This document shows positions 1,535 to 33,232 of a stretch of DNA of 33,232 bases, piece by piece; positions within the stretch are counted from its first letter, which is position 1; each line of letters starts with the position of its first letter. The position numbers and the translations under genes were made by a program. The notes beneath the pieces were generated by a model. The model made no database searches and was not told where the DNA came from. It saw only the letters and a program-made list of their open reading frames with translations. Source of the DNA: a virus; IMG/VR virus record IMGVR_UViG_3300035182_000755, positions 1-33,232 of that record. The stretch is one strand, 5' to 3'.

Positions 1535-3070
1535 TCACTCCTCTTCGGTCCCGGAGGCTGGCGACTCCATATTGCCGGGCGTGTCACCCGAGCCTGCCAA
1601 GGGATTCTTCTCGAGCGCGTCCGCCAGGAATGCGGCGGCGTCGAACGGGATTCCCGCGGCAGCGCACGCCGCCGCGATCGGCGCGAGCTTCTCACTCGCG
1701 AACTTCTCAGTGTCCGCGCGGCTGCGCCCGCGCTTGGCATCGGCCTCAAACCTAGCGCGAATCCTGTCGGCAGCGTCGCTCAGAATCGGCGCGAGCATTG
1801 CGCTTGCGGTCGCCGGCTGGGCTGCCGGCGGCGGCGCGTCCAGTGGGGCCGCAGGCCCGTGGATGAGGCCGTCTTCTGTCACCGTGCCGAGCGTCAGCTC
1901 TGCTCTCGGCCGCTCGAGGCCCTTGACCGGGTTGAGGTCATAGTGCGCGCGGCCCTCGTTCGGGGCGATGATGCCGGCGCGCACCAGCATGGCGTCTCCC
2001 TCGGTGCGCGTCTTGTAGTCGCCTCGCAGCATGGAGTCGATGTTGAATCGCGCCGAGTAGGCGGGCTTCATGGCGAACAGGCGGTGTCGGATCACGGCCT
2101 CGGTGTCGACGCAGATAGGCTGGGCGGTGTACTTCGCCAGCGAGAGGTCCTGCTGTTCGGTGTTTGAGTAGGTGCCGTTCGTGAGGTCCTGTACGGCCGC
2201 CATGGGGACGCGAAACACGCTGCAGATTTGCTGCAGCTGCCAGCGCATCTGCTCGACGAGCTGCGCGTCCTTCAGGCTCATGTCGTTCTGCTTGTACGTT
2301 AGGCCGCGGTCGAAGATGCGGACCTGGCCGGCGTTGAGCAGGCCGGAGAATCCCTTCAGCTGCTCGCTGATCGCCTTGTAGTCCTCTGGAGTGAGGTCGC
2401 GGTCCGTCTCGAGGTAGCCCGGGAAATGCGAGCCGTTCCCGAGCAGGCGAGCGAAGAACTGCTCCGTTCCAATCGAGACGCCGATCGCCTCGCTCGCGAG
2501 GCTGATCAGGCTGCGCCCCTCGTAGGGAGACGTCAGCACCGCGCTCTTGAAGTGCAGCACGTCGCGCAGCGGGATCGGCCCGGCGGGCGTGAAGTTGTCG
2601 CCGGTGTAGTTCCAGGCCGCGGTGCGCGTCGCGCGGTCGATCACGAGCGCCGGCTGCGGCCCGGTGAGGGGCCAGATTTCGCGCGGCTCATAGCCGTCCC
2701 AGACGATGCGCGCGTAGGCGTTGCCGGTGGTGTCCTCGCGGAGTTGCTTCCAGCGCCAAAACTCCTTCGACGTCATGAGGTCATTCGGAGCGATCGACAG
2801 AAGCCGGTACTCCGGCGTCTCGATGTCGTGTGTCTTGCTTCCGTCTGCGTTCTGGCGGAGCACGTCGACGGGCAGCGTGGATACGGTCTGTGCGCGGACA
2901 ATCAGGCAGGCGAGGACGGCCGTGGAGCGCATGGCCGTTTGTTCATTGACGGCCACGCCCGAGGACGAGAGTTGTGAGAGTGCCCCATAGAACGCCTTGA
3001 GCACGTTGTCGTCACTGAGTGAGTACTCCTCCGCCTCATTGCGGACGAACAACCGCAACGGGTTCCACAC
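1535..3070 (-). CDS. Portal protein (HK97 gp3-like)
   Basis: A 511-residue portal protein, the dodecameric ring at the capsid vertex through which DNA enters and to which the tail attaches. Family features are the N-terminal 'AVLACLIVRAQTVSTLPVDVLR' region, the 'FWRWKQLREDTTGNAYA' stretch and a mid-protein 'PMAAVQDLTNGTYSNTEQQ' segment typical of HK97-type portals. The C-terminal 100 residues are Pro/Ala-rich and less conserved. The start is set at GTG 3070, six bases after GGAGG. An ATG at 3103 is also open, but it lies inside the 23-bp repeat at 3100-3122 and has no ribosome site. The last residues (GDTPGNM, 1567-1589) are encoded by a second copy of the same repeat, so the repeat is coding here and noncoding upstream. 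Confidence 0.92.
   Translation of the reverse strand: MWNPLRLFVRNEAEEYSLSDDNVLKAFYGALSQLSSSGVAVNEQTAMRSTAVLACLIVRAQTVSTLPVDVLRQNADGSKTHDIETPEYRLLSIAPNDLMTSKEFWRWKQLREDTTGNAYARIVWDGYEPREIWPLTGPQPALVIDRATRTAAWNYTGDNFTPAGPIPLRDVLHFKSAVLTSPYEGRSLISLASEAIGVSIGTEQFFARLLGNGSHFPGYLETDRDLTPEDYKAISEQLKGFSGLLNAGQVRIFDRGLTYKQNDMSLKDAQLVEQMRWQLQQICSVFRVPMAAVQDLTNGTYSNTEQQDLSLAKYTAQPICVDTEAVIRHRLFAMKPAYSARFNIDSMLRGDYKTRTEGDAMLVRAGIIAPNEGRAHYDLNPVKGLERPRAELTLGTVTEDGLIHGPAAPLDAPPPAAQPATASAMLAPILSDAADRIRARFEADAKRGRSRADTEKFASEKLAPIAAACAAAGIPFDAAAFLADALEKNPLAGSGDTPGNMESPASGTEEE
1567..1589 (-). repeat. 23-bp junction repeat, copy 2 (portal/protease)
   Basis: Identical 23-bp sequence to 3100-3122 and 32466-32488; on the minus strand it begins GGGTGACACG and ends CAATATGG. 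This copy is translated as part of the portal C-terminus and lies 37 bases upstream of the protease start. Similarity to the 32466 copy appears to continue downstream, through a GGACCGAAGAGGAGTGAC-like segment into the first codons of the protease, which suggests a duplicated junction. Confidence 0.85.
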
Positions 3071-3099
3071 GCCGCACCTCCGAGGTCGGGACCTAAGGC

Positions 3100-3122
3100 C
3101 CATATTGCCGGGCGTGTCACCC
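3100..3122 (-). repeat. 23-bp junction repeat, copy 1 (terminase/portal)
   Basis: Identical to the copies at 1567-1589 and 32466-32488. It starts with the last Gly codon and TGA stop of the large terminase and then occupies most of the short gap before the portal ribosome site. Function is unknown; a regulatory site, a recombination boundary or duplication debris are all possible. Confidence 0.85.
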
Positions 3123-4568
3123 GTCGAGCCTCAGCGTCCAGATGCCGCCGGTCTCGGCGAAGCTCGGGGCGAAGGCTGACCCCTCCGCTTCTGCGAGGTA
3201 GACCGCCATTGCCAGGGCGACCGCGGCGTCCACCTTGCGCTCCTCCTCGATGCGCGTGATGCGCCAGCCGTAAGGCGTCGCCTTGACGCCGGCGTTCAGC
3301 ACCTGATCGGTCAGATCGGAGTCACCGCCGTGAGCGATGCGGCCCTCGAGGATCACGTCGTACAGTGCCATGCTAGCAGCGCTCATGCGCTTCGCGTCCT
3401 GCGGGAACTCTTCGATCGGCAGATGGAACTCATGCTCGAGCTTGAGCATGGAGCGCGTGAAGTAGTTCGGGTCGCAGGCGATGCGGACCACGTTGTAGGC
3501 GGCGCAGAGCTCGACAATCTTCGCCTCCACGGCCTCGTGGTCGATGTGGCCCATGGCCGCGTCCTTCCGCCAGACCTGTGACCAGACGGAGTGCCGGCCG
3601 GCGTCGCTCCGCTGCACCATGACGAGCGCTGTCGTGTCGCGCGTCCAGGATGCATCTAGTCCGAGCAGCGTCGGGCGTTCGGGGTCGAAGTTTGGAGGTG
3701 CGCTGCAGGCGTACCAGCGGTCGGCTGGATAGGCGCGGTTGGTACCCGAGCTCGGGAAGCGATTTAGGTGCAGGCGTTCGAAGACGGGGAAGGGCAGCGT
3801 GCGGTACTGATCACGAAGCATCTTCAGCGTGATCCACTTCGACGGGTTGGCCCGGCGCCAGACCTTGGGGTCGTGTCCGTCCTCATCGTCTCCGGCGCCA
3901 CACCAGTAGACGTAGGCCCGCGGGTCCTTCGGCGCCGTGCGCAGAAGCTCCCACAGCGGGCCCTTGCGCTCCGGTCCGGCGGTCGAGATGGTGATCAGCA
4001 GGCCGTTGTCGCTGCCGACCATGCCGGACAGCATCGCCTCGCGCATGGAGGCGTTTCGGTGCACGTGGTACTCGTCGATGATGCAGCACGTGGGGTGGAA
4101 TCCCTGCGCCGTGTCCGCGTCCCAGGGCAGGACGCGGAAGATCGCCCCGGTCTCCTCCACCTCGATGAGGTTGCGGTAGACGTGCGTCGCGGCGCGCAGC
4201 TGCGGGTCGGAGAGCACCATGCGCTTGGCCTTGTCGAAGACGATTCCGGCCTGCTGGCGCGTGGTCGCCACGACGTAATACTCGCCCTCGTAGACGGGCT
4301 CAGTAAACATCACGGCCAGGGCGAGCCCGGCGGCGACCTGGCTCTTGCCACCCCATCGCGGCAGCCCGAACAGCGCCTCGCGGTAGACGCGCTTGCCCCG
4401 CGCGTCCAGGGTGCCGAACAGCGGCTTGATCATATGCTTGTACTGCCAGGGCTCGAGGACGAACGGCTTGCCCGCCCATCGGCCGCCGGTGAAGCGCAGA
4501 TGCTCCGCCATGAAGAGGCGGATGAGCTCCGCCGACAGTTCTCCGGAGATGCGCTTGCGACCGGCCAC
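3117..4568 (-). CDS. terL: Terminase large subunit (ATPase/nuclease)
   Basis: A 483-residue DNA-packaging motor that hydrolyses ATP to pump DNA into the prohead and cuts the concatemer. Seen: an adenine-binding FVLEPWQ motif (residues 36-42), Walker A GLPRWGGKS (68-76), and Walker B CCIIDE with catalytic Glu (161-166). The C-terminal RNase H-like nuclease has acidic residues in LGLDASW, IACDPNYF and KVDAAVALAMA. This arrangement fits the HK97 or Terminase_1 group. I set the start at GTG 4568, just after the small-subunit stop at 4573 and behind a GAAAGG site. An upstream ATG at 4637 would add 23 residues overlapping the small-subunit gene and looks spurious. The stop lies in repeat copy 1. 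Confidence 0.95.
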   Translation of the reverse strand: MAGRKRISGELSAELIRLFMAEHLRFTGGRWAGKPFVLEPWQYKHMIKPLFGTLDARGKRVYREALFGLPRWGGKSQVAAGLALAVMFTEPVYEGEYYVVATTRQQAGIVFDKAKRMVLSDPQLRAATHVYRNLIEVEETGAIFRVLPWDADTAQGFHPTCCIIDEYHVHRNASMREAMLSGMVGSDNGLLITISTAGPERKGPLWELLRTAPKDPRAYVYWCGAGDDEDGHDPKVWRRANPSKWITLKMLRDQYRTLPFPVFERLHLNRFPSSGTNRAYPADRWYACSAPPNFDPERPTLLGLDASWTRDTTALVMVQRSDAGRHSVWSQVWRKDAAMGHIDHEAVEAKIVELCAAYNVVRIACDPNYFTRSMLKLEHEFHLPIEEFPQDAKRMSAASMALYDVILEGRIAHGGDSDLTDQVLNAGVKATPYGWRITRIEEERKVDAAVALAMAVYLAEAEGSAFAPSFAETGGIWTLRLDG

Positions 4569-4572
4569 GTGG

Positions 4573-5061
4573 TCAGCCTTTCGCCAGCTTGGAGACGAGA
4601 CGTTCGCGGATGTCCAGGACCATGCTCTGGCCGGCAATCTCGAGCAGGCCGCCGCGAATCCGTGCCAGCGGGTTGAGCCCGAGCACGTCGGAGAGCTGGC
4701 GCATAGTGGTGGCAGCGTCCTTCTGCACCTTGACCATGGGATTGACGACCGGCCCGTAGGCTCCGTCGGTCATCAGGCCCTGGGCGTGAATCATGGCGCT
4801 TGCTTGCAGGTGTAGGTAGGTAGCCTCGCAGTAGGCGCGCAAAAGGACAAGGTCGGGAGCACGCAGGTGGCGGTTCGCGCCCATCTCCCTGACGCAGGCG
4901 CTCCAGACGTCGCGGACCTGCCTCGGCATGTCAGCAGGCGGCTCCGTCTCCGCCAGATCCCCGGCCGGCAGCGCCCTCGTCAGGGCCGCCTTCTCTTGAC
5001 CGCGGGGAGGCCGCTTGCTGACTTCCGGGCGCGTCCTTGCCTTCGGCGGCGGCCCGCTCAC
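4573..5061 (-). CDS. terS: Terminase small subunit, P27 family
   Basis: This 162-residue protein should bind the packaging site and recruit the large subunit. The basic, Pro-rich first 35 residues are followed by the family pattern: a Trp in 'VRDVWSACVREMG', then 'LRAPDLVLLRAYCEATYLHLQA' and 'GPVVNPMVKVQKDAATTMRQLSDVLGL', the P27 or Terminase_4 signature. It ends just before the large subunit and overlaps the upstream zinc-finger gene by four bases (5058-5061). The position at the head of the packaging module fits. Confidence is high from motif order and neighbour. Confidence 0.9.
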   Translation of the reverse strand: MSGPPPKARTRPEVSKRPPRGQEKAALTRALPAGDLAETEPPADMPRQVRDVWSACVREMGANRHLRAPDLVLLRAYCEATYLHLQASAMIHAQGLMTDGAYGPVVNPMVKVQKDAATTMRQLSDVLGLNPLARIRGGLLEIAGQSMVLDIRERLVSKLAKG

Positions 5062-5402
5062 AATACGCCCTCGAAGTAGTCATCGATCGCGCAGGCGATC
5101 ACATCGCCGAGCATACGGCAGCGCCAGGCAAGTCGCGGCTGCGCCTGCGACCCGAGCCTGATCAGCGCTCCAGAGAGACGTTCGGCCTCGAGCAAGGCCA
5201 CGGCCACCTGCTCATCCGTTTCCGCGGGGCGCGGCGCGGCTGCTGCGGCGGGCTCTGCTCGGCGCTGGCGTCCGCTCTCCTCGGCCTTGCGGAGTCTGTA
5301 GGCCCTTTTCCGGCAGCGGTCCGAGCAGTAGAGCGGCGGACGGCCAACGCCGGTCGGCGTGATCTCGTTTTGGCATTGGGGTCCTGCGCAGATCATGACC
5401 AT
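5058..5402 (-). CDS. Small zinc-finger protein upstream of terminase
   Basis: A 114-residue protein of unknown role. Residues 5-35 hold a four-Cys cluster (CAGPQC, then YCSDRC), a likely zinc-binding ribbon that also fits the form of small DNA- or RNA-binding phage proteins. An Arg/Lys-rich stretch, an Ala/Pro linker and a helical C-terminus follow. It is the first gene after the 120-bp gap at the early/late boundary and overlaps the terminase small subunit. No good ribosome site precedes ATG 5402; ATG 5396 is an alternative start. It could be a packaging accessory factor or a transcription regulator of the late genes; neither is shown by the sequence. Confidence 0.75.
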   Translation of the reverse strand: MVMICAGPQCQNEITPTGVGRPPLYCSDRCRKRAYRLRKAEESGRQRRAEPAAAAAPRPAETDEQVAVALLEAERLSGALIRLGSQAQPRLAWRCRMLGDVIACAIDDYFEGVL

Positions 5403-5522
5403 AGTATGCCACTTTCGTCACCCGCTTTCGTCCCCCCCGGTTTCCCAACCCGCGGAAATTTGCGCGGGGCGGCTGGCAGGGTGGGCGCGATGGGCTTGCA
5501 GTGATGATACCCCCCTACCCCT
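5399..5522 (-). promoter_or_regulatory. Early/late junction gap; possible cos or late control region
   Basis: A 120-bp noncoding gap separates the early operon (ends 5523) from the packaging and structural genes (start 5402). It has a run of seven C followed by GG (5432-5440) and an imperfect dyad around AAATTT flanked by CGCG near 5450-5466. Next to the start codon, 5399-5423 is a loose relative of the 23-bp repeat (GGGTGAC, six bases, GGCA, then TATGG). A cos site directly upstream of terminase genes is common in HK97-like phages. I see no convincing -35/-10 pair. Either assignment is inference. Confidence 0.35.
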
Positions 5523-6005
5523 TCACTGCGTCGCTGCGCCTTGAGGCCGAGCGAAGGTCGCTGCTCCCGAGATGCGCGCGGATGCGGACGCCACTCTCCA
5601 CAGCGCATCTCCTAGTGTTGCGGGAGTTGCCCAGGAAGTAACGCGCCCATCGAAGAAGCCGACTCCAAGAGACGCGCATATCTCCTGCGCCGCAACCTTC
5701 ACGGCTCTGCGCCGGGCGCCCGGACGATTGACAGCCGCCCCGAATCCTTCTCCATAGTCGGTGACCTCGAAGCGCCCCTCGTCCTCTCGCACATAGACGA
5801 CCACGCTATCGCCCTGCGGATAGAACATCGGGAAGTCGCAGGCGACGCGATCGTCAAGCTGACTGAAGCTCACCTGTCGGGTAGACAGCCCCGCCTGCTC
5901 TGCCTCGGCCTCGGCCTGCCCCAGCATCTCACCCACGACGGCCGGTGGCACGTACCGCTTCCCGTCAACGAAGCTCTCGCGCTTCCCGTCGTATCGGATG
6001 CTCAT
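5523..6005 (-). CDS. DUF1828-like protein, last gene of the early operon
   Basis: A 160-residue protein. The middle part, 'FYPQGDSVVVYVREDEGRFEVTDYGEGFG' (about residues 60-90), resembles the DUF1828 core: a small beta sheet ending in a (L/V)TDxG motif. That family has no firmly known function. A helical C-terminal part with a Gly/Ala-rich end follows. It starts with ATGA overlap on the previous gene's stop at 6002 and ends the early operon. It might belong to a group of accessory genes with 6002-6592 and 6589-6981, possibly host-interaction or anti-defence factors; this rests only on position. Confidence 0.75.
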   Translation of the reverse strand: MSIRYDGKRESFVDGKRYVPPAVVGEMLGQAEAEAEQAGLSTRQVSFSQLDDRVACDFPMFYPQGDSVVVYVREDEGRFEVTDYGEGFGAAVNRPGARRRAVKVAAQEICASLGVGFFDGRVTSWATPATLGDALWRVASASARISGAATFARPQGAATQ

Positions 6006-6592
6006 GACTCGCTCTCTTCCACAAGCGGCCCCTCTTCACCACTGAGATAACGAGCGAGAAGTCCAGCCTGTGCATCCCACGCTGCATCCCACGCTGCATC
6101 CCTCGCTGCATCCTTCGCTGTGGTGCCTGCTGCGTCCTTCGCTACGGCACACGCTGTGGCCCACGCTGCGTCCTTTGCTGCGGCGCTTGCCTCGCCGTAT
6201 TTGGCATAGGCCACGCCCGCGTTGAGGCAGTCGCCCAGCAGACGCGATGGTTCCAGATTCAGATGAGCCACGAGCCTCGCGCAGTCCATGGCGAACAGTC
6301 GCTGGTTCCTCTCGTTCCACTCTGGGACTCGGCGCACGAGCCGCAGTTGCTCTGCCGCCGACTTGTCGCTGCCGTGGACCTGCTCACCCTTCACCTCGAT
6401 TTCGTACAGCGCCTCGCCAGCGTGGATGATGGCTTGTTTGAGATCGCGGCAGTAGTGATAGCCAGACGTGCAGAGGACTGGTTTCTGCTTCGGTAGCCAC
6501 TTGCCGGGACGTTTGCCGTGTGGCAGGTAGTCGGTGTAGTCGCCATAGCCGTACGATCCGGTGGTGCCGTTCATCATCTTGTAAATGCTCAT
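6002..6592 (-). CDS. DUF7666-like protein with Ala/Asp repeat tail
   Basis: A 196-residue protein. The first 100 residues ('MSIYKMMN...KPVLCTSGYHYCRDLKQAI...ALYEIEVKGE') match the pattern I know from phage and plasmid proteins labelled DUF7666: a leading 'IYK' strand, then 'C.SG.H.C' and 'YE.EV.G'. Function is unknown. Residues about 135-180 are degenerate repeats of AAKDAA/AAWDAA, encoded by imperfect 12-bp units between about 6065 and 6185; many proteins of this family carry Ala-rich repeat tails. The ATG at 6592 overlaps the upstream stop as ATGA. The frame is open to 6913, but that extension overlaps the upstream gene. Confidence 0.75.
   Translation of the reverse strand: MSIYKMMNGTTGSYGYGDYTDYLPHGKRPGKWLPKQKPVLCTSGYHYCRDLKQAIIHAGEALYEIEVKGEQVHGSDKSAAEQLRLVRRVPEWNERNQRLFAMDCARLVAHLNLEPSRLLGDCLNAGVAYAKYGEASAAAKDAAWATACAVAKDAAGTTAKDAARDAAWDAAWDAQAGLLARYLSGEEGPLVEESES
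6065..6185 (-). repeat. Imperfect 12-bp tandem repeat inside coding sequence
   Basis: On the plus strand, units close to GCATCCCACGCT and GCATCCTTCGCT recur about ten times, encoding the Ala-Trp/Lys-Asp-Ala repeats of the DUF7666-like protein. Unit number is likely to vary between relatives. Confidence 0.75.
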
Positions 6593-6981
6593 GACTCGCG
6601 CTCTCCCCTCACGGGGGGTTCCCACAGAGACTCGCCATCGAACCACTCGGTATGGCAGTGCTCGTGCGGCATCGTGTAACGATCGGGACCCCGCGCATAG
6701 CAGCGGAATCCAGACGACCATCCATATCGTGCATATGCGCAGTTCCCGCAGCACTTCAGCCGCTCCAGTTCGGCCTCGGCGCTCTCGGCTCGCTTGCGTT
6801 CGGCAAGGAACGACTCGTACTCGGCTTTGTGTGCGCCCGCCAGCTCGGCGATGGCGGCGTCGGCGAGACGCTTTGGTACGACTCCTGACAGTCCTGGCTC
6901 GGGCGGCGTCCACGCCCGGTACTCATCCAGCGCATTCATCTTATCTGTCGGTTCGTATTTGGGCATGTCGAGTGCGCTCAT
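6589..6981 (-). CDS. Hypothetical coiled-coil protein with Cys cluster
   Basis: A 130-residue protein I do not recognise. Residues 40-75 form a predicted helix or coiled coil rich in Glu, Ala and Lys. The C-terminal 55 residues contain CCGNCAY, CYARG and HEHCH, a probable zinc-binding site of the 'CxxC...C...C' type found in many small phage proteins. It starts in ATGA overlap with the 39-residue gene upstream and ends in ATGA overlap with the DUF7666-like gene, so it is translationally coupled on both sides. Confidence 0.72.
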   Translation of the reverse strand: MSALDMPKYEPTDKMNALDEYRAWTPPEPGLSGVVPKRLADAAIAELAGAHKAEYESFLAERKRAESAEAELERLKCCGNCAYARYGWSSGFRCYARGPDRYTMPHEHCHTEWFDGESLWEPPVRGERES

Positions 6982-7227: not shown

Positions 7228-7533
7228 TCACCGGCCGTCATCCCCGCTCCCGTCTTTGCCGCAGGCAGCCCGGCGCCGGCGCGCGAAGTGCCAAGGCCAC
7301 TGCTCCAGGCGGTAGCCGGGCTCTCCCGCAGCAGCGTCGACGCACCACCTGTAGCGCCGGCGCAGCTTCCCTACGGCCTTATTCACGTCGATGTTGGTGG
7401 CCAGAATGCCGCGGCGCTCGAGCTCCTGCTGCAGCCAGACCTTCTGACCGGGGCGCTCGACGGCGGCAGTGAGTAGCTGGCCGGCCACGGCAAGGACTAG
7501 GTCATCCGGGTGCAGGACGCGCCAGTTGTTCAT
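7228..7533 (-). CDS. Hypothetical winged-helix-like protein
   Basis: A 101-residue protein with a basic C-terminus. Residues 5-75 ('DDLVLAVAGQLLTAAVERPGQKVWLQQELERRGI...VNKAVGKLRRRYRW') suggest a small helix-turn-helix or winged-helix fold with a beta hairpin at 'GEPGYRLEQW'. DNA binding is an inference. ATG 7533 overlaps the MT-A70 stop as ATGA; the longer frame from 7575 lies within the methylase gene and is not preferred. Confidence 0.65.
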   Translation of the reverse strand: MNNWRVLHPDDLVLAVAGQLLTAAVERPGQKVWLQQELERRGILATNIDVNKAVGKLRRRYRWCVDAAAGEPGYRLEQWPWHFARRRRAACGKDGSGDDGR

Positions 7534-8102
7534 GGCCGGCCCATCTCGACATCGCACCGACACTCGTTGCCCCATGTGTCCCAGCCAAGGCGTTGACGGC
7601 GAGCGAAGAGCTCAAGGTAGGGGCCGGGAGATACTTGCTCGACTAGATCCAGGAAGGCCTCGGGCTTCTGCGAGTGAGCGGCGCGCGGCCACTCGTACCA
7701 CGTCGAGTCCGTGCGCCGCAGGGGCCTCGGGCGGCCACGCCGCGCAACGATGACAAACTCCGTCGTGCTCGCGAACACGCCGCCTGGCCCAATGCCGCGC
7801 CGCGGCTTGCACCACGTCAGTATCTGAGAGAATCGGAATCCCCACGACTCTGACACATCGTAGGAGTCGCGCAGGTAGCGGTTCGTCGTCCACAGGTATA
7901 GCGTCGCGTCCTCTTCTGCCATGTCGGCGACTGGCAAGGCGCAGATGTCCGCGACGGACATGGCCGGGTATGGGAGCGGTGCCCTCACGTTGCAATCCGC
8001 GGGGATTCCGTTGCGGTTGAACTTCGACTTGGCCGACGTACTGGCTGTTGGCCACAGGTGGTACTCCCACGGCGGGTCCGCAACGATGGTCCTGTATTTC
8101 AT
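7530..8102 (-). CDS. MT-A70 family adenine-N6 methyltransferase
   Basis: A 190-residue SAM-dependent methylase. The catalytic DPPW motif is at residues 9-12 (IVADPPWEY), followed by 'DATLYLWTTNRYL' and 'GFRFSQILTWCKPRRGIGPGG', and the C-terminal 'PYLELFARRQRLGWDTWGNE' motif, all typical of phage MT-A70 enzymes. The expected reaction is methylation of adenine N6 in DNA, which could hide phage sites from host restriction or mark DNA. It lies between RusA and a small HTH-like gene in the early operon, with overlaps on both sides. The target sequence cannot be read from the protein. Confidence 0.92.
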   Translation of the reverse strand: MKYRTIVADPPWEYHLWPTASTSAKSKFNRNGIPADCNVRAPLPYPAMSVADICALPVADMAEEDATLYLWTTNRYLRDSYDVSESWGFRFSQILTWCKPRRGIGPGGVFASTTEFVIVARRGRPRPLRRTDSTWYEWPRAAHSQKPEAFLDLVEQVSPGPYLELFARRQRLGWDTWGNECRCDVEMGRP

Positions 8103-11973: not shown

Positions 11974-12137
11974 GGCACCACGATCCAGAGGATGGCGCAG
12001 AAGGCGATCTCGATCACGGCCAGCACGGCAAAGAACAGAATCCAGGCCGCGACGTCCGAGGCGGTAAAGCGCTTCCTACGGGCCTGGCGGGTGCTACGCG
12101 GCCGGCTGCGAGCCGGCGTCTGCATGTCGTATCTCAT
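11970..12137 (-). CDS. Small single-pass membrane protein (55 residues)
   Basis: A 55-residue protein. The first 25 residues are strongly basic and predicted cytoplasmic; residues 30-54 are one hydrophobic helix (AAWILFFAVLAVIEIAFCAILW). Start ATG 12137 lies behind GGGAGAG, with M5 as an alternative. It overlaps the end of the HTH gene by 44 bases in another frame and the next start as ATGA. Early expression suggests a host-takeover or exclusion role rather than lysis; this is a guess. Confidence 0.6.
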   Translation of the reverse strand: MRYDMQTPARSRPRSTRQARRKRFTASDVAAWILFFAVLAVIEIAFCAILWIVVP

Positions 12138-12327
12138 TGCGTCTCTCCCTCTCCGCGGCCATGGCGTTGACGACTTCCTCAGGGATGCGCCACAGGCCGC
12201 TGTACTCGTCTTTCCGGGCGCCGGGGAATCTGCCCTCCTGCGCCCATACGGTCGTCGCCTGCCTCGTGATACCGAGGCGCTTGGCGGCTTCGTTTGCGGT
12301 GATGTCGATTGGTCTCACCTCCTTCAT
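12094..12327 (-). CDS. HTH DNA-binding protein (excisionase/MerR-like fold)
   Basis: A 77-residue protein with 'ITANEAAKRLGITRQATTVWAQEGRFPGARK' and 'LWRIPEEVVNAM', the winged-helix pattern of AlpA/Xis/MerR-type DNA binders. As first gene of the early operon it is a candidate regulator, perhaps of its own promoter. An excisionase role is unlikely because no integrase is visible. The sequence AAGGAGGTGA sits in codons 2-4, downstream of ATG 12327, so either a short-leader ATG is used or an uncommon start follows. GTG 12318 overlaps the site itself. Start therefore uncertain. Confidence 0.75.
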   Translation of the reverse strand: MKEVRPIDITANEAAKRLGITRQATTVWAQEGRFPGARKDEYSGLWRIPEEVVNAMAAERERRNEIRHADAGSQPAA

Positions 12328-12372
12328 CGGTTGCGTGCTTGACAGCGTATATCCTGGGATGCGGGTGTCAAG
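12328..12372 (-). promoter_or_regulatory. Probable early promoter with inverted repeat
   Basis: On the minus strand a perfect TTGACA -35 box (12371-12366) precedes AT-rich GGATATACGCT. The best -10 at 16-17 spacing is weak (TACGCT); TATACG fits better but is only 14 bases away. CTTGACA and TGTCAAG (12338-12344 and 12366-12372) form an inverted pair 21 bases apart, a plausible operator. The -35 box overlaps the cytosine methylase stop. It should drive the early operon, and a repressor or activator may be needed. Confidence 0.6.
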
Positions 12373-13525
12373 TATCTAGAATCCCAGCCTCGCGAGCCAG
12401 GTACGTCCACGCTGCAGCCATCGTGAGAGGCACCTGGCCGTTGCCAAGTGCGCGCAGGCGGTTGACGCGAGAGGACACCCCGACTGCCACTCTAGGGATG
12501 CGTCCTCCCATCCAATCGGCCAGCCCATGAGCCATGCCGTCCACGCAGGGTTCAGCGAGCCGGGAGTCGGCGGAATCCCCTCCGCTATTTCCGCTTGCTG
12601 CTCCAGACCCGGCGGCGAACTCTGGCCGCCGTTCGCACTCGGAGCCATCGCGCGTTCTGACTTGCGGTTCATTGTGCAGGGTGTCTGCCACGTCTGCGGG
12701 ATCGACCGCCCATGGGCCGCCCCAGTCCTCAGGTCCACTTGGTACCGCACCGCATCCTGGAGGTATGTCGCCCTGAGAGTGCCGCCGAAGGACTCCCTCC
12801 GGCACCCCCACTGTTCGGTCGTGCACTCTCGCGTCGTAGCCGTGGCGGTCGGCCACATCCCGCGCGCTTTCGCCGCCTTGCGCGAGTTGCTGCCTCCATC
12901 CAGTCCAGTAGTCCGTGCGGTAGGCCAGAATCCACAGTCGTTTGCGTCGATGCGGGGCGCCGACATCGTCTGCTCCCAGCACGCACCATTCCGCATCGAA
13001 CCCCGCTTCGGCCAGGTCTCCGAGAACGGTTCCGAAGTATCCTGAGCTGAGAAGTCCAGGCACATTTTCGAAGAATCCCAGCGGCGCGCCAGACTCGACC
13101 AGTATGCGAACGGCGTGTGGCCACAGGTTGCGCGGGTCATCCTCGCCGAGTCGCTTGCCGGCATGACTGAACGGCTGGCATGGAAAGCCGCCGGTGACGA
13201 TGTCGCACGATCCGGGGACGGGATGGAAGGTGCGTACATCGGGGTAGACGGGGAACTGAACAGGCCAGGATGCTGCCTCTCTGCTTCGATTGCGTGCGTC
13301 AGGTACAGGCTGTGACGGCTGCCCGAGAGCAGGTTCTGCACTTTGGAGTTGTTCCGTCCTGCTCCCGGCATCTGCGCTTGTGGTGTCGGCCATATAGCCG
13401 CCCCGCGCACAGAGGACTCGCTGGCAGTAGGAGTCGTACTCAACAGCGGCAACTGTTCGCCATCCGAGGAGCATTGAGCCGAGCAGTCCGCCGCCCGCGC
13501 CGGTGAAGAGTGAGAGTTCACGCAC
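12368..13525 (-). CDS. C5-cytosine DNA methyltransferase
   Basis: A 385-residue enzyme that methylates cytosine C5 in DNA using SAM. Motif I is 'LSLFTGAGGGLLG' (5-16), motif IV 'GGFPCQPFSHAGKRLG' has the nucleophile Cys116, motif VI 'FFENVPGL' follows near 151, motif VIII is 'GAPHRRKRLWIL', and motif X 'RALGNGQVP' is near the C-terminus. The variable target-recognition region between VIII and X is long and Gly/Asp-rich. GTG 13525 overlaps the preceding small gene by eight bases; an ATG at 13669 lies in that gene. No companion restriction gene is visible, so self-protection against host restriction is likely. Confidence 0.95.
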   Translation of the reverse strand: MRELSLFTGAGGGLLGSMLLGWRTVAAVEYDSYCQRVLCARGGYMADTTSADAGSRTEQLQSAEPALGQPSQPVPDARNRSREAASWPVQFPVYPDVRTFHPVPGSCDIVTGGFPCQPFSHAGKRLGEDDPRNLWPHAVRILVESGAPLGFFENVPGLLSSGYFGTVLGDLAEAGFDAEWCVLGADDVGAPHRRKRLWILAYRTDYWTGWRQQLAQGGESARDVADRHGYDARVHDRTVGVPEGVLRRHSQGDIPPGCGAVPSGPEDWGGPWAVDPADVADTLHNEPQVRTRDGSECERRPEFAAGSGAASGNSGGDSADSRLAEPCVDGMAHGLADWMGGRIPRVAVGVSSRVNRLRALGNGQVPLTMAAAWTYLAREAGILDT

Positions 13526-13697
13526 GGTCGGAGTCGTCGCGTGTGGTCGCTCCGTAGGTGCGCAGCGTCGCCCATGCGGCGGCGAGCGCGTCGGCCTGTT
13601 CCATGTTCCGGTTCGTGATCGGCGAGTACTCTGCGATGATGCGCCGAGCGGTCGCGACCTCTGCCTCAATCATCTTCGGGTTCATCGTGCAATCCAT
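13518..13697 (-). CDS. Small hypothetical protein before the cytosine methylase
   Basis: A 59-residue, mostly helical protein (starts MDCTMNPKMIEAEVATARRI). AGGAGA lies seven bases before ATG 13697, and a near-consensus promoter lies upstream, which together support it strongly. It overlaps the methylase start. It may be a small partner of the methylase or an independent factor; no motif is recognised. Confidence 0.72.
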   Translation of the reverse strand: MDCTMNPKMIEAEVATARRIIAEYSPITNRNMEQADALAAAWATLRTYGATTRDDSDRA

Positions 13698-13732: not shown

Positions 13733-13760
13733 ATTCTATCCGGCGGGTTTACGGTGTCAA
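13733..13760 (-). promoter_or_regulatory. Near-consensus sigma-70-type promoter
   Basis: Minus strand: TTGACA (13760-13755), 16-base spacer, TAGAAT (13738-13733), six of six and five of six matches. Predicted transcription begins near 13726, about 28 bases before ATG 13697. It lies between a terminator (13790-13822) and the methylase unit, exactly where a new transcript is expected. Confidence 0.82.
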
Positions 13761-14083: not shown

Positions 14084-15385
14084 TCATACCGAGATCCTGC
14101 ACTGAGCGTCAGCGGCCTCGATGCGTCGGCGAGCGATTTCGACGTACTCGGCCTCGCGCTCGATGCCGATGAAGGCGCGGGACTCCTCAACGCAAGCGAC
14201 GCCCGTAGTGCCACTGCCCATGAACGGGTCGAGCACCACGTCTCCGGGCCGTGCCACGAGCTTGACCAGCCAGCGCATGAGGGCGATGGGTTTGACGGTT
14301 GGGTGATGATTGGCTCGCGGGCGCGGCTTGATCTCTATTGGCGCGCTTGTGTACGGATGCACTCCATAGGCCCGGTCGCCCAGTGCGACCGACTGCACGA
14401 CTATCTGCGGCATCCCCTCCAGCCCCGCGTCTCTTTCCTTCCGGCTCGCCTTGGCGCAGTAGAAGAAGCGTGATGCGCCGCCGCCCTGCCCGTACCCGAC
14501 GTCCCGCGTGTCCTTCTTCCGCGCCCCAAGAATCCGGTTCGCTATCTCGCCTCCATTCCGGTTATGGCCCACATGGAAGCCATCGCGCTGCATTCCAGAC
14601 TGCGCGTCAAGAAACGCCGCCGCCTCTTCGTCCAGAACGAGGTTCGCAGGCCAGCGACCGGAAGGGGACGACTTGGCGATGCCGTCACCTATCAGGATTT
14701 TCTTCCCGCTGCCGCTGCCATAGTTGCCCCCGCGCATATCGTCCCGCATACCACGGCGCTCCCACGGCTCGCCCCCGGCGACCCGACACTCCTCAATCCC
14801 CAGCGCCCTCTTCCGACCCGGCTTGCGGGCGAGGATGATTGGCTCCCATGCGGGCTTGAGGTTGGCATCCCCCTTTGGAAACCCGGTTCCGTACAGCCAC
14901 ATGATCGTGTCGCGTATCTCAAACCCGGCGTCCTCCAGAGCGCAGGCTAGTCGGTGCCAAGTGCGTGTGCCGCCAAATGCGAGCAGATAGTGGCTGGGCT
15001 TAAGGACGCGGAGGGCTTCTGTGGCCCACGCCTGATGCCACTCCTGCATCATGGCGGCGCGGTGGGCGTTACGGCTGTGGTACGCCTCGCCCTTCACGCG
15101 CCATTCGGGAGACTCGCAGTTGCACTTGTTCGCGCCGCGCATCCTGCCTCCGCAGACGGCGCAGGTAGCGTTCGCCGTTTCGCCGCCGTAACTTACCCAC
15201 TCCGTCGCTCGGTCGCCGAGGCCGCACTTGCTCATTCCGCCACCGTCGCGCCAGTCCAGCTTGTCCCACGACATGCCCATGAACTCAAGTCCATACGGCG
15301 GGTCCGTCACGACCGCGTCCACCGATCCTGCCTCCATCCCGGCCATGACCTCGAGACAGTCGCCGTGATGCAGGGTGAAGCTCAT
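14084..15385 (-). CDS. Beta-class DNA N4/N6 methyltransferase
   Basis: A 433-residue amino-methyltransferase. The catalytic DPPY motif (VVTDPPYGL, residues 25-33) comes first and the SAM-binding 'VVLDPFMGSGTTGVA' motif near the C-terminus, the beta-class order. 'HHPTVKPIALMRWL' is also diagnostic. A large insert between them holds a Cys cluster (CAVCGGR...CNCES) and a Gly/Arg-rich region, probably involved in target recognition. The product is N6-methyladenine or N4-methylcytosine; the sequence does not decide. Start ATG 15385 overlaps the lysin stop as ATGA. It lies inside the lysis region, an unusual place for a methylase. Confidence 0.93.
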   Translation of the reverse strand: MSFTLHHGDCLEVMAGMEAGSVDAVVTDPPYGLEFMGMSWDKLDWRDGGGMSKCGLGDRATEWVSYGGETANATCAVCGGRMRGANKCNCESPEWRVKGEAYHSRNAHRAAMMQEWHQAWATEALRVLKPSHYLLAFGGTRTWHRLACALEDAGFEIRDTIMWLYGTGFPKGDANLKPAWEPIILARKPGRKRALGIEECRVAGGEPWERRGMRDDMRGGNYGSGSGKKILIGDGIAKSSPSGRWPANLVLDEEAAAFLDAQSGMQRDGFHVGHNRNGGEIANRILGARKKDTRDVGYGQGGGASRFFYCAKASRKERDAGLEGMPQIVVQSVALGDRAYGVHPYTSAPIEIKPRPRANHHPTVKPIALMRWLVKLVARPGDVVLDPFMGSGTTGVACVEESRAFIGIEREAEYVEIARRRIEAADAQCRISV

Positions 15386-16050
15386 AGCGACCACGCCGGA
15401 TAAGGCGAGTCGTGCTGCACGTCGTGGAAGATGTGCCAGGCGGTGCGGCATTGATTGAGCGGGTCACTCATCCACGCAGCACCGCACGGCCACCAGCAGC
15501 CAGCCAGTTGGTACAGGCCGTAGCAGCCGGAGCCCTGATGATTCCAGACGTGCGGCGACCCGCTCGACTCGCGCATCACAATCGGCACCATCACGCGGAT
15601 GCCGTACTCGCTCCAGCCGGCGTAGCGCATCGCGGGGACCCATCGTGCCGCCCCGCTCCCGCCGGGATGGCGCAGCTTCGCGATGCCCTCCTTCGTCTTC
15701 GCCCGCCAGCCGTTCGCCTGCGCCCTCCATCGCCGCGATGCCCGCGTCCACGCCGCCTCGCTCTGGAGCCGCCTGGGCGCAGGAGAGACGCGGACGGGCA
15801 GTGAGTCGCCGAAACACCTGCGGACGCGGGAAAGTGCATTCCGCGCCCTCTCAGCGCGGCGGCGATTGGCAAGGGCGGAGTGCACGGTCGCCGAGGAGGC
15901 GGGAGCAGGTGGGGGCGACGCGCTCGGCGTGGCCGCCGGAGCCGGAGAGGCCGGCGAAGCGCCGGCGAGCGCAGCGAGCGCCAGCGCGGCCACGGCCACG
16001 ATCAGGCCAATGGTGAGCAGCACGATCGCCAGGGTCAATGAGATCCTCAC
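15382..16050 (-). CDS. Membrane-anchored transglycosylase/lysozyme-like protein
   Basis: A 222-residue protein. Residues 1-30 form an uncleaved or signal-type membrane helix, residues 31-55 an Ala/Pro/Ser linker, residues 56-135 a basic helical region, and residues 136-222 a lysozyme-like fold: 'WSEYGIRVMVPIVMRESSGSP' with likely catalytic Glu161, 'GSGCYGLYQL', and 'DPLNQCRTAWHIF', typical of SLT or Rpf-like glycosidases. It should cleave cell-wall glycan. The GTG at 16050 has GGGAGG six bases upstream, better than the open frame from 16134. It may be a second lysin or a virion-associated exolysin. Confidence 0.8.
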   Translation of the reverse strand: MRISLTLAIVLLTIGLIVAVAALALAALAGASPASPAPAATPSASPPPAPASSATVHSALANRRRAERARNALSRVRRCFGDSLPVRVSPAPRRLQSEAAWTRASRRWRAQANGWRAKTKEGIAKLRHPGGSGAARWVPAMRYAGWSEYGIRVMVPIVMRESSGSPHVWNHQGSGCYGLYQLAGCWWPCGAAWMSDPLNQCRTAWHIFHDVQHDSPYPAWSL

Positions 16051-16137
16051 GGGAATCCTCCCGGTGAGCTCGCGGCTACGCGACCGGACCCGGCCGCGCC
16101 CGCCTGATGCTCGGAATGGTATGGGCCGCGTCACCCG

Positions 16138-16479: not shown

Positions 16480-17657
16480 GGCCCGTCCTCCAGTGCATAG
16501 GCGCGGACGCTCCAGTCGTCCCCGCGGCTTGTCTTCCATGCATCGCCCGGCAGGTGGCACGTCCAGGTCTGCACGAGACCTTCGACGCTCCAGGTGATGC
16601 CGCTGATCTTCCGCGTTACCGAGCCGGTGGCGAACGCCGCGCTCACGCTCTGACTGACGAGCGCCAGCTCCCACGTCGCGTGCGTGACGGTCGCGGTCGC
16701 GGCCACCGCCGACTTCGCTTCGCCGGTATAGTTCAGCTCCAGCGTCCGATGCACCGCCGCCGTGACGACGACGGCAGACGTGGCCTCGCTGGCAAGCATG
16801 AGCTCCCACGTCGCATGGGCCACAGATCCGGCGGCGGCTACGGTGCTCTGCGCCTCCGATGTGAGGGCGAGATCCCACGTCGCATCAACCTTGCCGGCCG
16901 CGGCGGAGACCGCGCTCTTCGTCTCGCTGGCAAGCGCAAACTCCCACGTGGCGTGGGTGACGGATCCACTGGCCGCTACCGCGCTCTTCGCCTCGCTCGC
17001 AAAGGCGAGTTCGTGCGTCTGCGCGCCCTGCTTCTGCCCGGTCGCCGCGACCGCAGATGCCGCCTCGGACGCCAGCGCCAGCTCCCACGTCGCGTGCATG
17101 ACGCCGCCGGTGGCGGCCACCGCGCTGACGGACTCGCTGGCAAGCGCGAGCTCCCACGTGGCGTGGGTGACGGAACCTGTAGCGCTGGCCGCGGACTTGG
17201 CTTCGCCGGTGAGGGCCAGCTCCCAGACCGCGTGAGTGACGCTGCCCGTCGTTGCGACGGCGGACTTGGCCTCGCTCGCTAGTGCCAGTTCCCACGTGGC
17301 CCGCGTGACAGAGCCGGTCGCCACTATGGCGCTCTTGGCCTCGCTGGCGAGCGCGAGTTCCCATACGGCATGAGTGACGCCGCCCGTCGCCGTGACGGAA
17401 GACTCAGACTCACTCGCGAAGGCCAGGTCCCATACTGCCTGCGCGACGGAGCCGGTAGCCGCTACGGCGCTCCCCGCCTCGCTCGCAAGCGCGAGCTCCC
17501 ACGTGGCGTGCGTGACGGCGCCCGTGGCGGAGACTGCGGACTTGGACTCGCTCGCGAGGGCAAGCTCCCATGTGGTGGGCGCGGCGGATCCGCCCAGGCC
17601 CCAAGTGACGAGAAGATCGCTGCTGTCGCCGAGCCCGCGTGTGACGATGACGGACAC
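16476..17657 (-). CDS. Tail fibre-like protein made of 23-residue Trp repeats
   Basis: A 393-residue protein. From about residue 29 to 345 it is built of fourteen tandem copies of a 23-residue unit, close to 'TWELALASEAKSAVAATG' plus 'SVTHA'. A different C-terminal domain with several Trp follows (residues 346-393). Repeats with W-x-(V/L)-x-A spacing are known from minor tail proteins of actinobacterial phages, where they likely form extended beta stalks. One unit near the middle has 24 residues and lacks Trp. Start is GTG 17657, directly after the previous stop. Role in host contact is inference. Confidence 0.8.
   Translation of the reverse strand: MSVIVTRGLGDSSDLLVTWGLGGSAAPTTWELALASESKSAVSATGAVTHATWELALASEAGSAVAATGSVAQAVWDLAFASESESSVTATGGVTHAVWELALASEAKSAIVATGSVTRATWELALASEAKSAVATTGSVTHAVWELALTGEAKSAASATGSVTHATWELALASESVSAVAATGGVMHATWELALASEAASAVAATGQKQGAQTHELAFASEAKSAVAASGSVTHATWEFALASETKSAVSAAAGKVDATWDLALTSEAQSTVAAAGSVAHATWELMLASEATSAVVVTAAVHRTLELNYTGEAKSAVAATATVTHATWELALVSQSVSAAFATGSVTRKISGITWSVEGLVQTWTCHLPGDAWKTSRGDDWSVRAYALEDGP
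16620..17575 (-). repeat. 69-bp tandem repeats in tail fibre-like gene
   Basis: About fourteen diverged 69-bp units encode the 23-residue repeats. Conserved stretches such as GAGCTCCCACGTCGCGTG (plus strand) recur at regular spacing. Divergence is mostly synonymous or conservative, so the repeats look old and selected rather than a recent expansion. Confidence 0.85.
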
Positions 17658-30923: not shown

Positions 30924-31364
30924 TCACCCGCGCACGACGGAGCCCTCGCAGGTGACGGTGACCACCACGAGGTACTGCCGCGTGGTTTCGTCGGGCAGCG
31001 CTTCGCTACCCTCGATCGCAGACACATAGGCGTTGTCACAGATTCCCCCGAGCGTCGGGTCGGCGGACACGGCGTCTTCTACGTCACCCGCCAGATCGAG
31101 CGCTCCGGACTGCACCTCTAGAAAGTCATCTGTCGAGCGCGAGCAGATCGTGCGCACGTTGATATCAACTTCTTCCCCGCGCTGGCCGCCGCCGGAGGTT
31201 TGGCGCACGACGCGCACGTCAAAGGCGCCGCCGACGTATACGTGGTCTTCATCGAGGCCGCCGACGGGGTATCCGATATCGCAGCGGACTCCGGGCGGCA
31301 GCAGGGCCGTGACCGCCTCCTGCAGCGCCCGCTGAATCTGTGGTGCTAGGGTGCGGAAGCCCAT
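30924..31364 (-). CDS. Tail terminator / head-tail joining protein (candidate)
   Basis: A 146-residue alpha/beta protein with 'LAPQIQRALQEAVTALLPPGVRCDIGYP' and 'FDVRVVRQTSGGGQRGEEVDINVRTICSRSTDDFLEVQSGALDLAGDVEDAV', then 'TTRQYLVVVTVTCEGSVV'. The helix, strand, helix plan with a terminal strand resembles gpU-like tail terminators of actinobacterial phages. It lies between connector and major tail protein, the usual place. A role in capping the tail tube before head joining is inferred from that. Confidence 0.75.
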   Translation of the reverse strand: MGFRTLAPQIQRALQEAVTALLPPGVRCDIGYPVGGLDEDHVYVGGAFDVRVVRQTSGGGQRGEEVDINVRTICSRSTDDFLEVQSGALDLAGDVEDAVSADPTLGGICDNAYVSAIEGSEALPDETTRQYLVVVTVTCEGSVVRG

Positions 31365-32230: not shown

Positions 32231-32425
32231 TCACTTGCGCTTCGCGCCTGTGGCAGCGCTAGGCCCCGCCGCTACGCGCTCCGCGTAGCCGCGCTCTTCG
32301 AGCAGCGCTGCGGCGTCTTCCGGAACGTCGTCCTCTGTGCCGGCGTCCCCAACGTAGACGCGGATATCCTCGGGGTCGGAGGCGATCTCGATGCCCTGGC
32401 CCGTCGTGTAGCGTACTCGCGCCAT
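32231..32425 (-). CDS. Small protein between capsid and connector
   Basis: A 64-residue protein ('MARVRYTTGQGIEIASDPEDIRVYVG...EERGYAERV', ending in GAKRK). This form occurs in many siphoviruses between capsid and connector as a small hypothetical protein. AGGAGAG precedes ATG 32425; GTG 32431 is a less likely start. It is the first gene after the terminator and the third copy of the 23-bp repeat, so it may start a new transcript. Confidence 0.78.
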   Translation of the reverse strand: MARVRYTTGQGIEIASDPEDIRVYVGDAGTEDDVPEDAAALLEERGYAERVAAGPSAATGAKRK

Positions 32426-32465
32426 GGTCACTCTCCTGTTTCAGCGGGTCGCTTCTCTTCGGCCC

Positions 32466-32488
32466 CCATATTGCCGGGCGTGTCACCC
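32466..32488 (-). repeat. 23-bp junction repeat, copy 3 (capsid/connector)
   Basis: Identical to 1567-1589 and 3100-3122. It lies in noncoding sequence just after the terminator hairpin (32495-32534) and 41 bases before the start of the next gene. The sequence after it resembles the start region of the protease gene (CCGAAGAG.AG.GAC, then TGAA.CA), so it may be a copied junction. Confidence 0.85.
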
Positions 32489-32494
32489 AAAGAC

Positions 32495-32534
32495 AGAAAG
32501 GGCCGCCGGAACCTGGGCTCCGGCGGCCCTTTCT
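32495..32534 (-). terminator. Strong terminator after the major capsid gene
   Basis: A perfect 16-bp stem (agaaagggccgccgga / tccggcggccctttct) with an 8-base loop, flanked by A and T tracts on both sides so it could work in both directions. It begins 15 bases after the capsid stop. Such a site is common after capsid genes and would reduce or reset transcription before the connector and tail genes. Confidence 0.92.
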
Positions 32535-32549
32535 GCGCGGCGCTACTGG

Positions 32550-33232
32550 TTAGGCGTTGTTGCTCTTAAGGAGTACGGCCGCCTGGTGGTCCCAGGCGCA
32601 GCCGCCGAGGCGGGCGAGCGAGTAGAAACGAATCTTCGGCGTTGCCGTGTACGGGTCGCGGAGAATCGTCGTGTTCCTGTGGATGCCCACGGCATAGGCC
32701 GCGCCGATGTTGGCGAAGGCGACCGGGTAGTTCGCAGCGCCGATCGCGGGAGCCGAATCGGTCTCGACGACGGGCTTGCCGAGGATTCTGTACTCGCCGG
32801 TGTTCGGGTCCTGCGTAGCGAGCGGCACGGTGCTCGACGCAGCCGGATGGCTAAAGGCCGCGACCACAGACAGCGTGGCACCGCTCATGAGCCACACGGC
32901 GTCACGGCGGTACTTCATCGGCAGCGCGAACTGCACCGTCAAGAAGTTGGTGTTGGCGAGCGCGCCGGCCACGCCGGAGAGCTTGGTCGTGTAGCTTGCG
33001 GTCTCCGCGAAGAGGCCCTTGATCTTGGTTGCGCCGTCGCCGGCCACGGCGTCGGCTCCGGCCTGCTCCTGGATGTCCTCGTACATCCACTGCACGAGCA
33101 TGTTCTCGAGGTTCGGCACGGCGTCGAGCGCGAGCTGCGTCGCGCGCTGGTCCGAGTAGTAGTCATAGCAGGTGAGCGTCGGGCCCGTGAAGGTCGGCGC
33201 GTTCTGCTCGACGCGGGCATCGGTCTCCGCCG
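32550..33232 (-). CDS. Major capsid protein, HK97 fold (C-terminal part, joins 1-694)
   Basis: The rest of the major capsid gene, joined to 1-694 through the circular overlap. It carries the HK97 A-domain and P-domain patterns: 'LENMLVQWMYEDIQEQAGADAVAGDG', 'GATLSVVAAFSHPAAS', 'YRILGKPVVETDSAPAIG', and the final 'TPKIRFYSLARLGGCAWDHQAAVLLK'. The stop at 32550 lies 15 bases before the terminator hairpin. Base 33105 differs from base 77 (GAG versus GAA, both Glu), so two variants may have been present in the sample. Confidence 0.93.
   Translation of the reverse strand, partial: AETDARVEQNAPTFTGPTLTCYDYYSDQRATQLALDAVPNLENMLVQWMYEDIQEQAGADAVAGDGATKIKGLFAETASYTTKLSGVAGALANTNFLTVQFALPMKYRRDAVWLMSGATLSVVAAFSHPAASSTVPLATQDPNTGEYRILGKPVVETDSAPAIGAANYPVAFANIGAAYAVGIHRNTTILRDPYTATPKIRFYSLARLGGCAWDHQAAVLLKSNNA
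33029..33232. repeat. Terminal direct overlap (right copy)
   Basis: Matches 1-204 except for base 33105 (C here, T at 77). Together they show the assembly closes to a circle of about 33,028 bp. Confidence 0.93.

Follow-up and report, generated by a model that had tools for sequence, protein, structure and literature searches.

A short repeat in the viral DNA studied here (a stretch of 33,232 nt, hereafter the window) very probably marks five late promoters scattered over the genome, all with a phage-specific box in place of the -35 element. The promoter assignment is well supported at the level of sequence, from which we also infer promoter activity, use of sigma-A, positive control, and late timing. 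Positions 1 to 204 of the window are identical to positions 33029 to 33232; this 204-bp direct terminal repeat, which leaves 33,028 bp of unique sequence, shows that the genome is complete and either circular or circularly permuted, with a size of about 33,028 bp. All identified genes lie on the minus strand, as do the hairpin and the promoter sites described below. The repeat itself, GGGTGACACGCCCGGCAATATGG, occurs on the minus strand as an exact 23-mer at 3100-3122, 1567-1589, and 32466-32488, and a search of the whole window found nothing else within 7 mismatches. Three exact 23-mers in 33 kb cannot be due to chance. Gene identification with Pfam and PHROGs placed the copies at the terminase large subunit (TerL)/portal, portal/protease, and capsid/connector junctions. 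GGGTGA of the copy at 3100 contains the stop codon of TerL (3117-4637; PF03354/PF20441). The copy at 1567 is translated as SGDTPGNME in the C-terminus of the portal protein (1535-3070; PF04860), ahead of a ClpP-type head maturation protease (691-1530; PF00574). The copy at 32466 is noncoding and follows the capsid gene behind a terminator-like hairpin (32494-32535; 20-bp arms, 95% complementary), upstream of a small connector-region gene (32231-32431); since the contig is circularly permuted, this copy is part of the same head module. An earlier sequence-only reading had given these positions and contexts correctly. Its remark that the copies at 1567 and 32466 share more downstream sequence did not hold: their ungapped flanks match at chance level (10-16/60), and a short GGxCCGAAGAG, at differing offset, is the sole downstream likeness.

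In each promoter, a 7-bp box (GGGTGAC, about -27 to -21) would be separated by 8 bp of free sequence from the -10 hexamer (YANNNT, -12 to -7). Predicted late promoter 1, before the portal gene, spans 3102-3122 (box GGGTGAC at 3116-3122, spacer at 3108-3115, -10 element CAATAT at 3102-3107), with transcription predicted to start near 3095; it is an exact repeat and is found at the same junction in relatives. Predicted promoters 2 (1569-1589, inside the portal C-terminus and before the head protease) and 3 (32468-32488, directly downstream of the hairpin and before the connector genes) both read GGGTGAC ACGCCCGG CAATAT. Two weaker relatives of the repeat, noted previously at 5399-5423 and 16113-16136, proved real, but the spacing originally assigned to them was wrong, and both fit GGGTGAC-N8-YANNNT. 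The first, predicted promoter 0 (5403-5423; GGGTGAC GAAAGTGG CATACT), precedes a zinc-finger gene and the terminase genes and stands 6 nt from the ATG at 5396, a leaderless spacing. The second, predicted promoter 4 (16116-16136; GGGTGAC GCGGCCCA TACCAT), precedes a lysin-like gene with transglycosylase matches; its counterpart in a 94% relative (G005) reads AGGTGAC GCGCCTTA TACCCT, with the spacer changed and GTGAC and TACC.T kept.

A matrix trained on 64 sites of relatives, with the window and G005 left out, gave its five highest scores in the whole window (14.9-17.0) to these same sites. In 30 randomized windows, the maximum averaged 10.1 and reached 15.6 at its highest, so that a lone score near 15 is no proof, whereas the joint ranking and the positions are. 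A sixth, weaker match in the ClpP gene (GCGTAAC GCACTGTT CATGAT) was discounted as a chance product of the protein sequence. At 30929, GGGTGAC represents a stop codon, with the ribosome site GAGGAT behind it, and is no promoter match.

Scanning viral contigs for the exact 23-mer recovered copies in only two near relatives, both near-identical contigs. Because such matches are uninformative on function, distant relatives were gathered via TerL and portal searches, which yielded about 30 more distant records, all uncultured; among genome contigs, a scan with TerL gave no match and one with a portal alignment gave three. At the same junctions, the relatives carry GGGTGAC-N8-CANNNT or GCGTGAC-N8-CANNNT with unlike spacers, and the scrambled spacers reveal the constrained parts: [GC]GTGAC, exactly 8 bases, and YANNNT. 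Most records with a match contain the pattern 2 to 6 times on the coding strand, and a reversed-pattern control gave none. Over 433 kb, the N8 spacing occurs 91 times forward (on the coding strand) and once in reverse, the forward count including some near-identical records (73 after removal of duplicates), while none of the other spacings between 3 and 15 exceeds 10 forward occurrences. The box was found in all main lineages. As expected of promoters with a phage-specific box and no -35, columns -40 to -29 carry little information (0.04-0.27 bits each) and show no conserved -35 element, and no column upstream of the box to -57 exceeds about 0.5 bits; in the logo, the sites were picked by pattern, and its fixed columns are so by construction. 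No description of GGGTGAC-N8-YANNNT was found in the literature searched.

At the portal, protease, and capsid junctions, the motif is missing from the four known phages with the nearest TerL (phiPsal1, phiBT1, Sebastisaurus, and vB_Gva_AB1). The Streptomyces phage phiBT1 (L084) instead has a palindrome, CCTACTCACGTGAGTAGgCTG, at about 2185-2206 and 5420-5445; lying at the same two junctions (TerL/portal and after the capsid gene), it is perhaps an analogous late control site. One 61.5-kb viral contig (L035-L037; IMGVR_UViG_3300042091_002940) contains two related phage genomes in tandem, 78-87% identical and with four promoter sites each, and is either a chimeric assembly or two adjoining prophages.

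The exact identity of the copies in the window could also be taken for a recombination boundary between head modules, as had been suggested, or for the leftover of a recent duplication, since the three window copies and G005 have one and the same spacer. In other lineages, however, the same junctions retain the box and the -10 element around a different spacer, and the flanks of the three copies are unrelated. Moreover, the flanks are unchanged at the element, which recurs in phages with intact gene order, so that a recombination boundary is unsupported and the whole explanation has next to no probability in our view. Because the spacer is largely free in relatives, its identity across the window copies and G005 speaks for a recent copying or conversion event, which the three window copies probably underwent, and not for a function of the spacer. 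Judged by the freely varying 8-bp spacers of relatives, function does not require that all 23 bp be identical.

The portal genes provided evidence that selection acts on DNA. In 16 of them, the second site lies within the coding C-terminus, and the peptide over the site differs (SGDTPGNME, RRDGVLTVG, TGDGSGTIG, PADAHASMG, and others) while the box is constant. In one phage (L048), the site is read in another frame with the box kept. Among GTGAC and GTGAG copies in the common frame, the codons GGT and CGT are invariant, despite accounting for just 5-7% of the Gly/Arg codons there. Fixed rare codons combined with a varying frame indicate selection on DNA, and the initial suggestion of such selection, for instance on a regulatory binding site, was right. 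The same reading had named absence of the repeat from relatives, or residues kept while bases drift, as outcomes that would speak against it; we found the element kept in related genomes and, in the portal genes, bases that stay while amino acids and even the frame change.

The position of transcription starts could be judged from the first late gene. In 17 of 18 phages, the start codon of the zinc-finger gene lies exactly 6 nt past YANNNT (the window, G005, two phages of G001, G002, G003, G004, L048, L050, L053, L055, L058, L060, L061, and L068, as well as L057 with the box GTGAG and the Coriobacteriia locus L075); in the exception, L069, the distance is 7 nt. The 18 phages include close relatives and hence fewer independent cases, with portal identities reaching down to 30%. 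No Shine-Dalgarno or ribosome site was visible at the zinc-finger genes among those inspected. A 6-nt spacing is the geometry of leaderless mRNA, which places YANNNT at -12 to -7 as a -10 element and GGGTGAC at -27 to -21; the -10 element thus stands at the correct distance from the transcription start in these 17 of 18 genes, with the start taken from the start codon. An outer group (L073 and L076) has GANNNT together with a leader and ribosome site at the zinc-finger gene. Elsewhere, distances to start codons differ between junctions, from 6 to more than 50 nt, with the motif itself fixed, and the element is accordingly positioned relative to the predicted transcription starts, not to translation starts. 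These distances bear on the idea that the repeat acts in translation or as an RNA signal at gene starts, a role proposed for the start-associated sequence (SAS) of cluster K mycobacteriophages. Every copy does precede a gene start, and the description as a start-associated sequence fits to that extent, but such a signal is hard to reconcile with the varying distances, and where the start codon is the first transcribed base the motif lies outside the mRNA; we regard this explanation as highly improbable.

On the promoter interpretation, the -10 hexamer, with its invariant A-11 and T-7, would be read by host RNA polymerase with a sigma-A-type factor, a phage-encoded DNA-binding protein on the box would compensate for the absent -35, and transcription would begin about 7 bases past the -10. 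Separate transcripts would then cover the zinc-finger and terminase genes, the portal gene, the protease and capsid genes, the connector genes, and the lysis gene. A C at -12 is unusual for sigma-A and counts against this interpretation. Contact between the box-bound protein and polymerase would also be unusual, as the box is 8 bp from the -10 and closer than the MotA box (12+/-1 bp). Readings as sigma54 or sigma70 -35/-10 promoters were checked by eye, and the spacing does not fit. TTGAC-type sigma70-like promoters on the coding strand were found only at 13760 and 12371, in the nonstructural region, and none in the head and connector regions scanned. The first is a canonical TTGACA-N16-TAGAAT (13733-13760) and the second, TTGACA-N16-TACGCT (12344-12371), precedes a helix-turn-helix gene (12094-12327); both are probably early, and host sigma for early genes with boxed promoters for late genes would fit this arrangement. 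In the same genome, three methyltransferase genes (MT-A70, C5-cytosine, and N6/N4; 7530-8102, 12368-13669, and 14084-15451) are present in 33 kb. A tail-region gene contains at least 9 tandem-like 69-bp repeats of 60-74% identity (16613-17640), and short ATCCCACGCTGC-type repeats at 6036-6225 encode an AKDAAW-like alanine-rich repeat in the gene at 6002-6913.

The sites might instead serve an alternative sigma factor of the host, or its polymerase together with a host activator, the phages merely making use of such promoters. Consistent with this, the 20 window proteins scanned with Pfam included neither a sigma factor nor an RNA polymerase, the single-subunit kind that goes with T7-type promoters among them, and the -10-like half has A-11 and T-7. 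Against it, a sigma -35/-10 pair would need a gap wider than 8 bp, the element accompanies a single phage gene, and box variants shift together inside single phages: L057 has GTGAG, and L059 has CTGAC, at all three sites (one -10 in L059 being GACGAT). Such concerted change within one genome points to one cognate trans-acting protein and suggests that the box is read by a trans-acting phage factor. In a Phycisphaerales metagenome-assembled genome (MAG) of doubtful binning that includes L074, moreover, the pattern is scattered on both strands off the phage contig. Host-controlled promoters therefore seem unlikely to us, although they are the foremost competitor. Operators for a phage repressor that keeps the head genes silent in a lysogen, like the stoperators of cluster A mycobacteriophages, would share the single orientation, the placement at gene boundaries, and the several copies. 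Genomes have just 4-5 sites, however, every site includes a -10, and some lie at a fixed distance from a leaderless start, which an operator does not need; as a nonexhaustive Pfam scan of window proteins also showed neither an integrase nor a repressor, we consider this very unlikely.

The most likely activator, although we hold this at slightly less than an even chance, is the 112-aa zinc-finger protein (5058-5396), whose own leaderless gene would be driven by the first site and is followed by the terminase small subunit gene (4573-5061; PF05119). It alone among the nonstructural proteins of the window has homologues in each of the six other near-complete genomes that carry the motif (G001a, G001b, G002, G003, G012, and G013). 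For matching box variants to zinc-finger residues, L057 offers the one informative pair in this set of phages. Its AlphaFold2 model (pLDDT 84, pTM 0.47) comprises a CxxxxC...CxxxC knuckle, a helix, and a helical hairpin. A fold search with this model found no structural relative and no match below E 1, the profile matched solved structures only weakly, at L24e-type treble clefs, and the family had no Pfam match, Ogr included. Binding of the box by this protein is our proposal, and it is possible, if rather doubtful, that this small treble-clef zinc protein occupies GGGTGAC beside the -10 and stands in for sigma region 3/4 on host RNA polymerase. If true, uncultured Actinomycetota phages would share a new form of sigma appropriation, and their late region would open with a leaderless switch gene that regulates itself.

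The best lead to the host group is L075, a prophage-like locus and distant head-module relative on a 232-kb Coriobacteriia MAG contig, which has the same leaderless zinc-finger promoter geometry at 6393-6420. Judged only from L075, L076, and the leaderless geometry, the host probably belongs to Actinomycetota. The portal match L074 (CAIWOY010000101.1), binned as Phycisphaerales, is a phage nearly identical to the viral contig L058; it is probably a binning error, and no host can be read from it.

The proposed late promoters resemble several known systems. P2 and P4 late promoters lack a -35 and depend on the small zinc-finger activators Ogr and Delta, whose sites (for Ogr) are dyads near -55. 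The likeness lies in the missing -35 and in the small phage zinc-finger protein proposed here as late activator; in contrast, the box is asymmetric and next to the -10, and Pfam revealed no Ogr/Delta homologue. Cluster A stoperators number about 20 or more repressor sites per genome, compared with 4-5 sites here. In T4 middle promoters, a phage-specific box likewise replaces the -35 of sigma70-type promoters that are dispersed in one orientation (PMC2988021). There, the MotA box, (a/t)3TGCTTtA, is centered at -30 and 12+/-1 bp from a good TAtaaT (PMC2988021), whereas here GGGTGAC lies at -27 to -21, with 8 bp between it and a weak CANNNT, and the window proteins scanned included no relative of MotA or AsiA. 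Mycobacterial leaderless promoters have a -10 TANNNT 7-12 bp before the start and no conserved -35 (PMC3898074); they share these features and leaderless mRNAs with our sites, but are host promoters without a GTGAC box. The SAS of cluster K mycobacteriophages, GGGATAGGAGCCC, precedes many genes in a role that is unproven (PMC3203893). Like our element, it is a short asymmetric repeat in one orientation before gene starts, conserved across subclusters, and its GGG...CCC 13-mer is superficially alike; the SAS lies a few bases from the translation start, however, whereas our element has another sequence, variable start-codon distances, a fixed promoter geometry, and only 4-5 late junctions. The 50-bp repeats of cluster DJ Gordonia phages are also intergenic promoter-like motifs with a -10 and a start site near the gene start, but are of TATAAT type, occur at the mid-genome genes 39-55, and are absent from head genes (PMC9671010). 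For a phage clade without close cultured relatives in the collections searched, whose hosts are probably Actinomycetota, a phylum in which the late control of phages has been little studied, the proposed promoters would offer a concrete late-transcription code, with late genes, operon starts, and one switch protein annotatable from sequence. Compared with these systems, late promoters with an activator box would be of a known kind, and the identity of the activator is a testable proposal.
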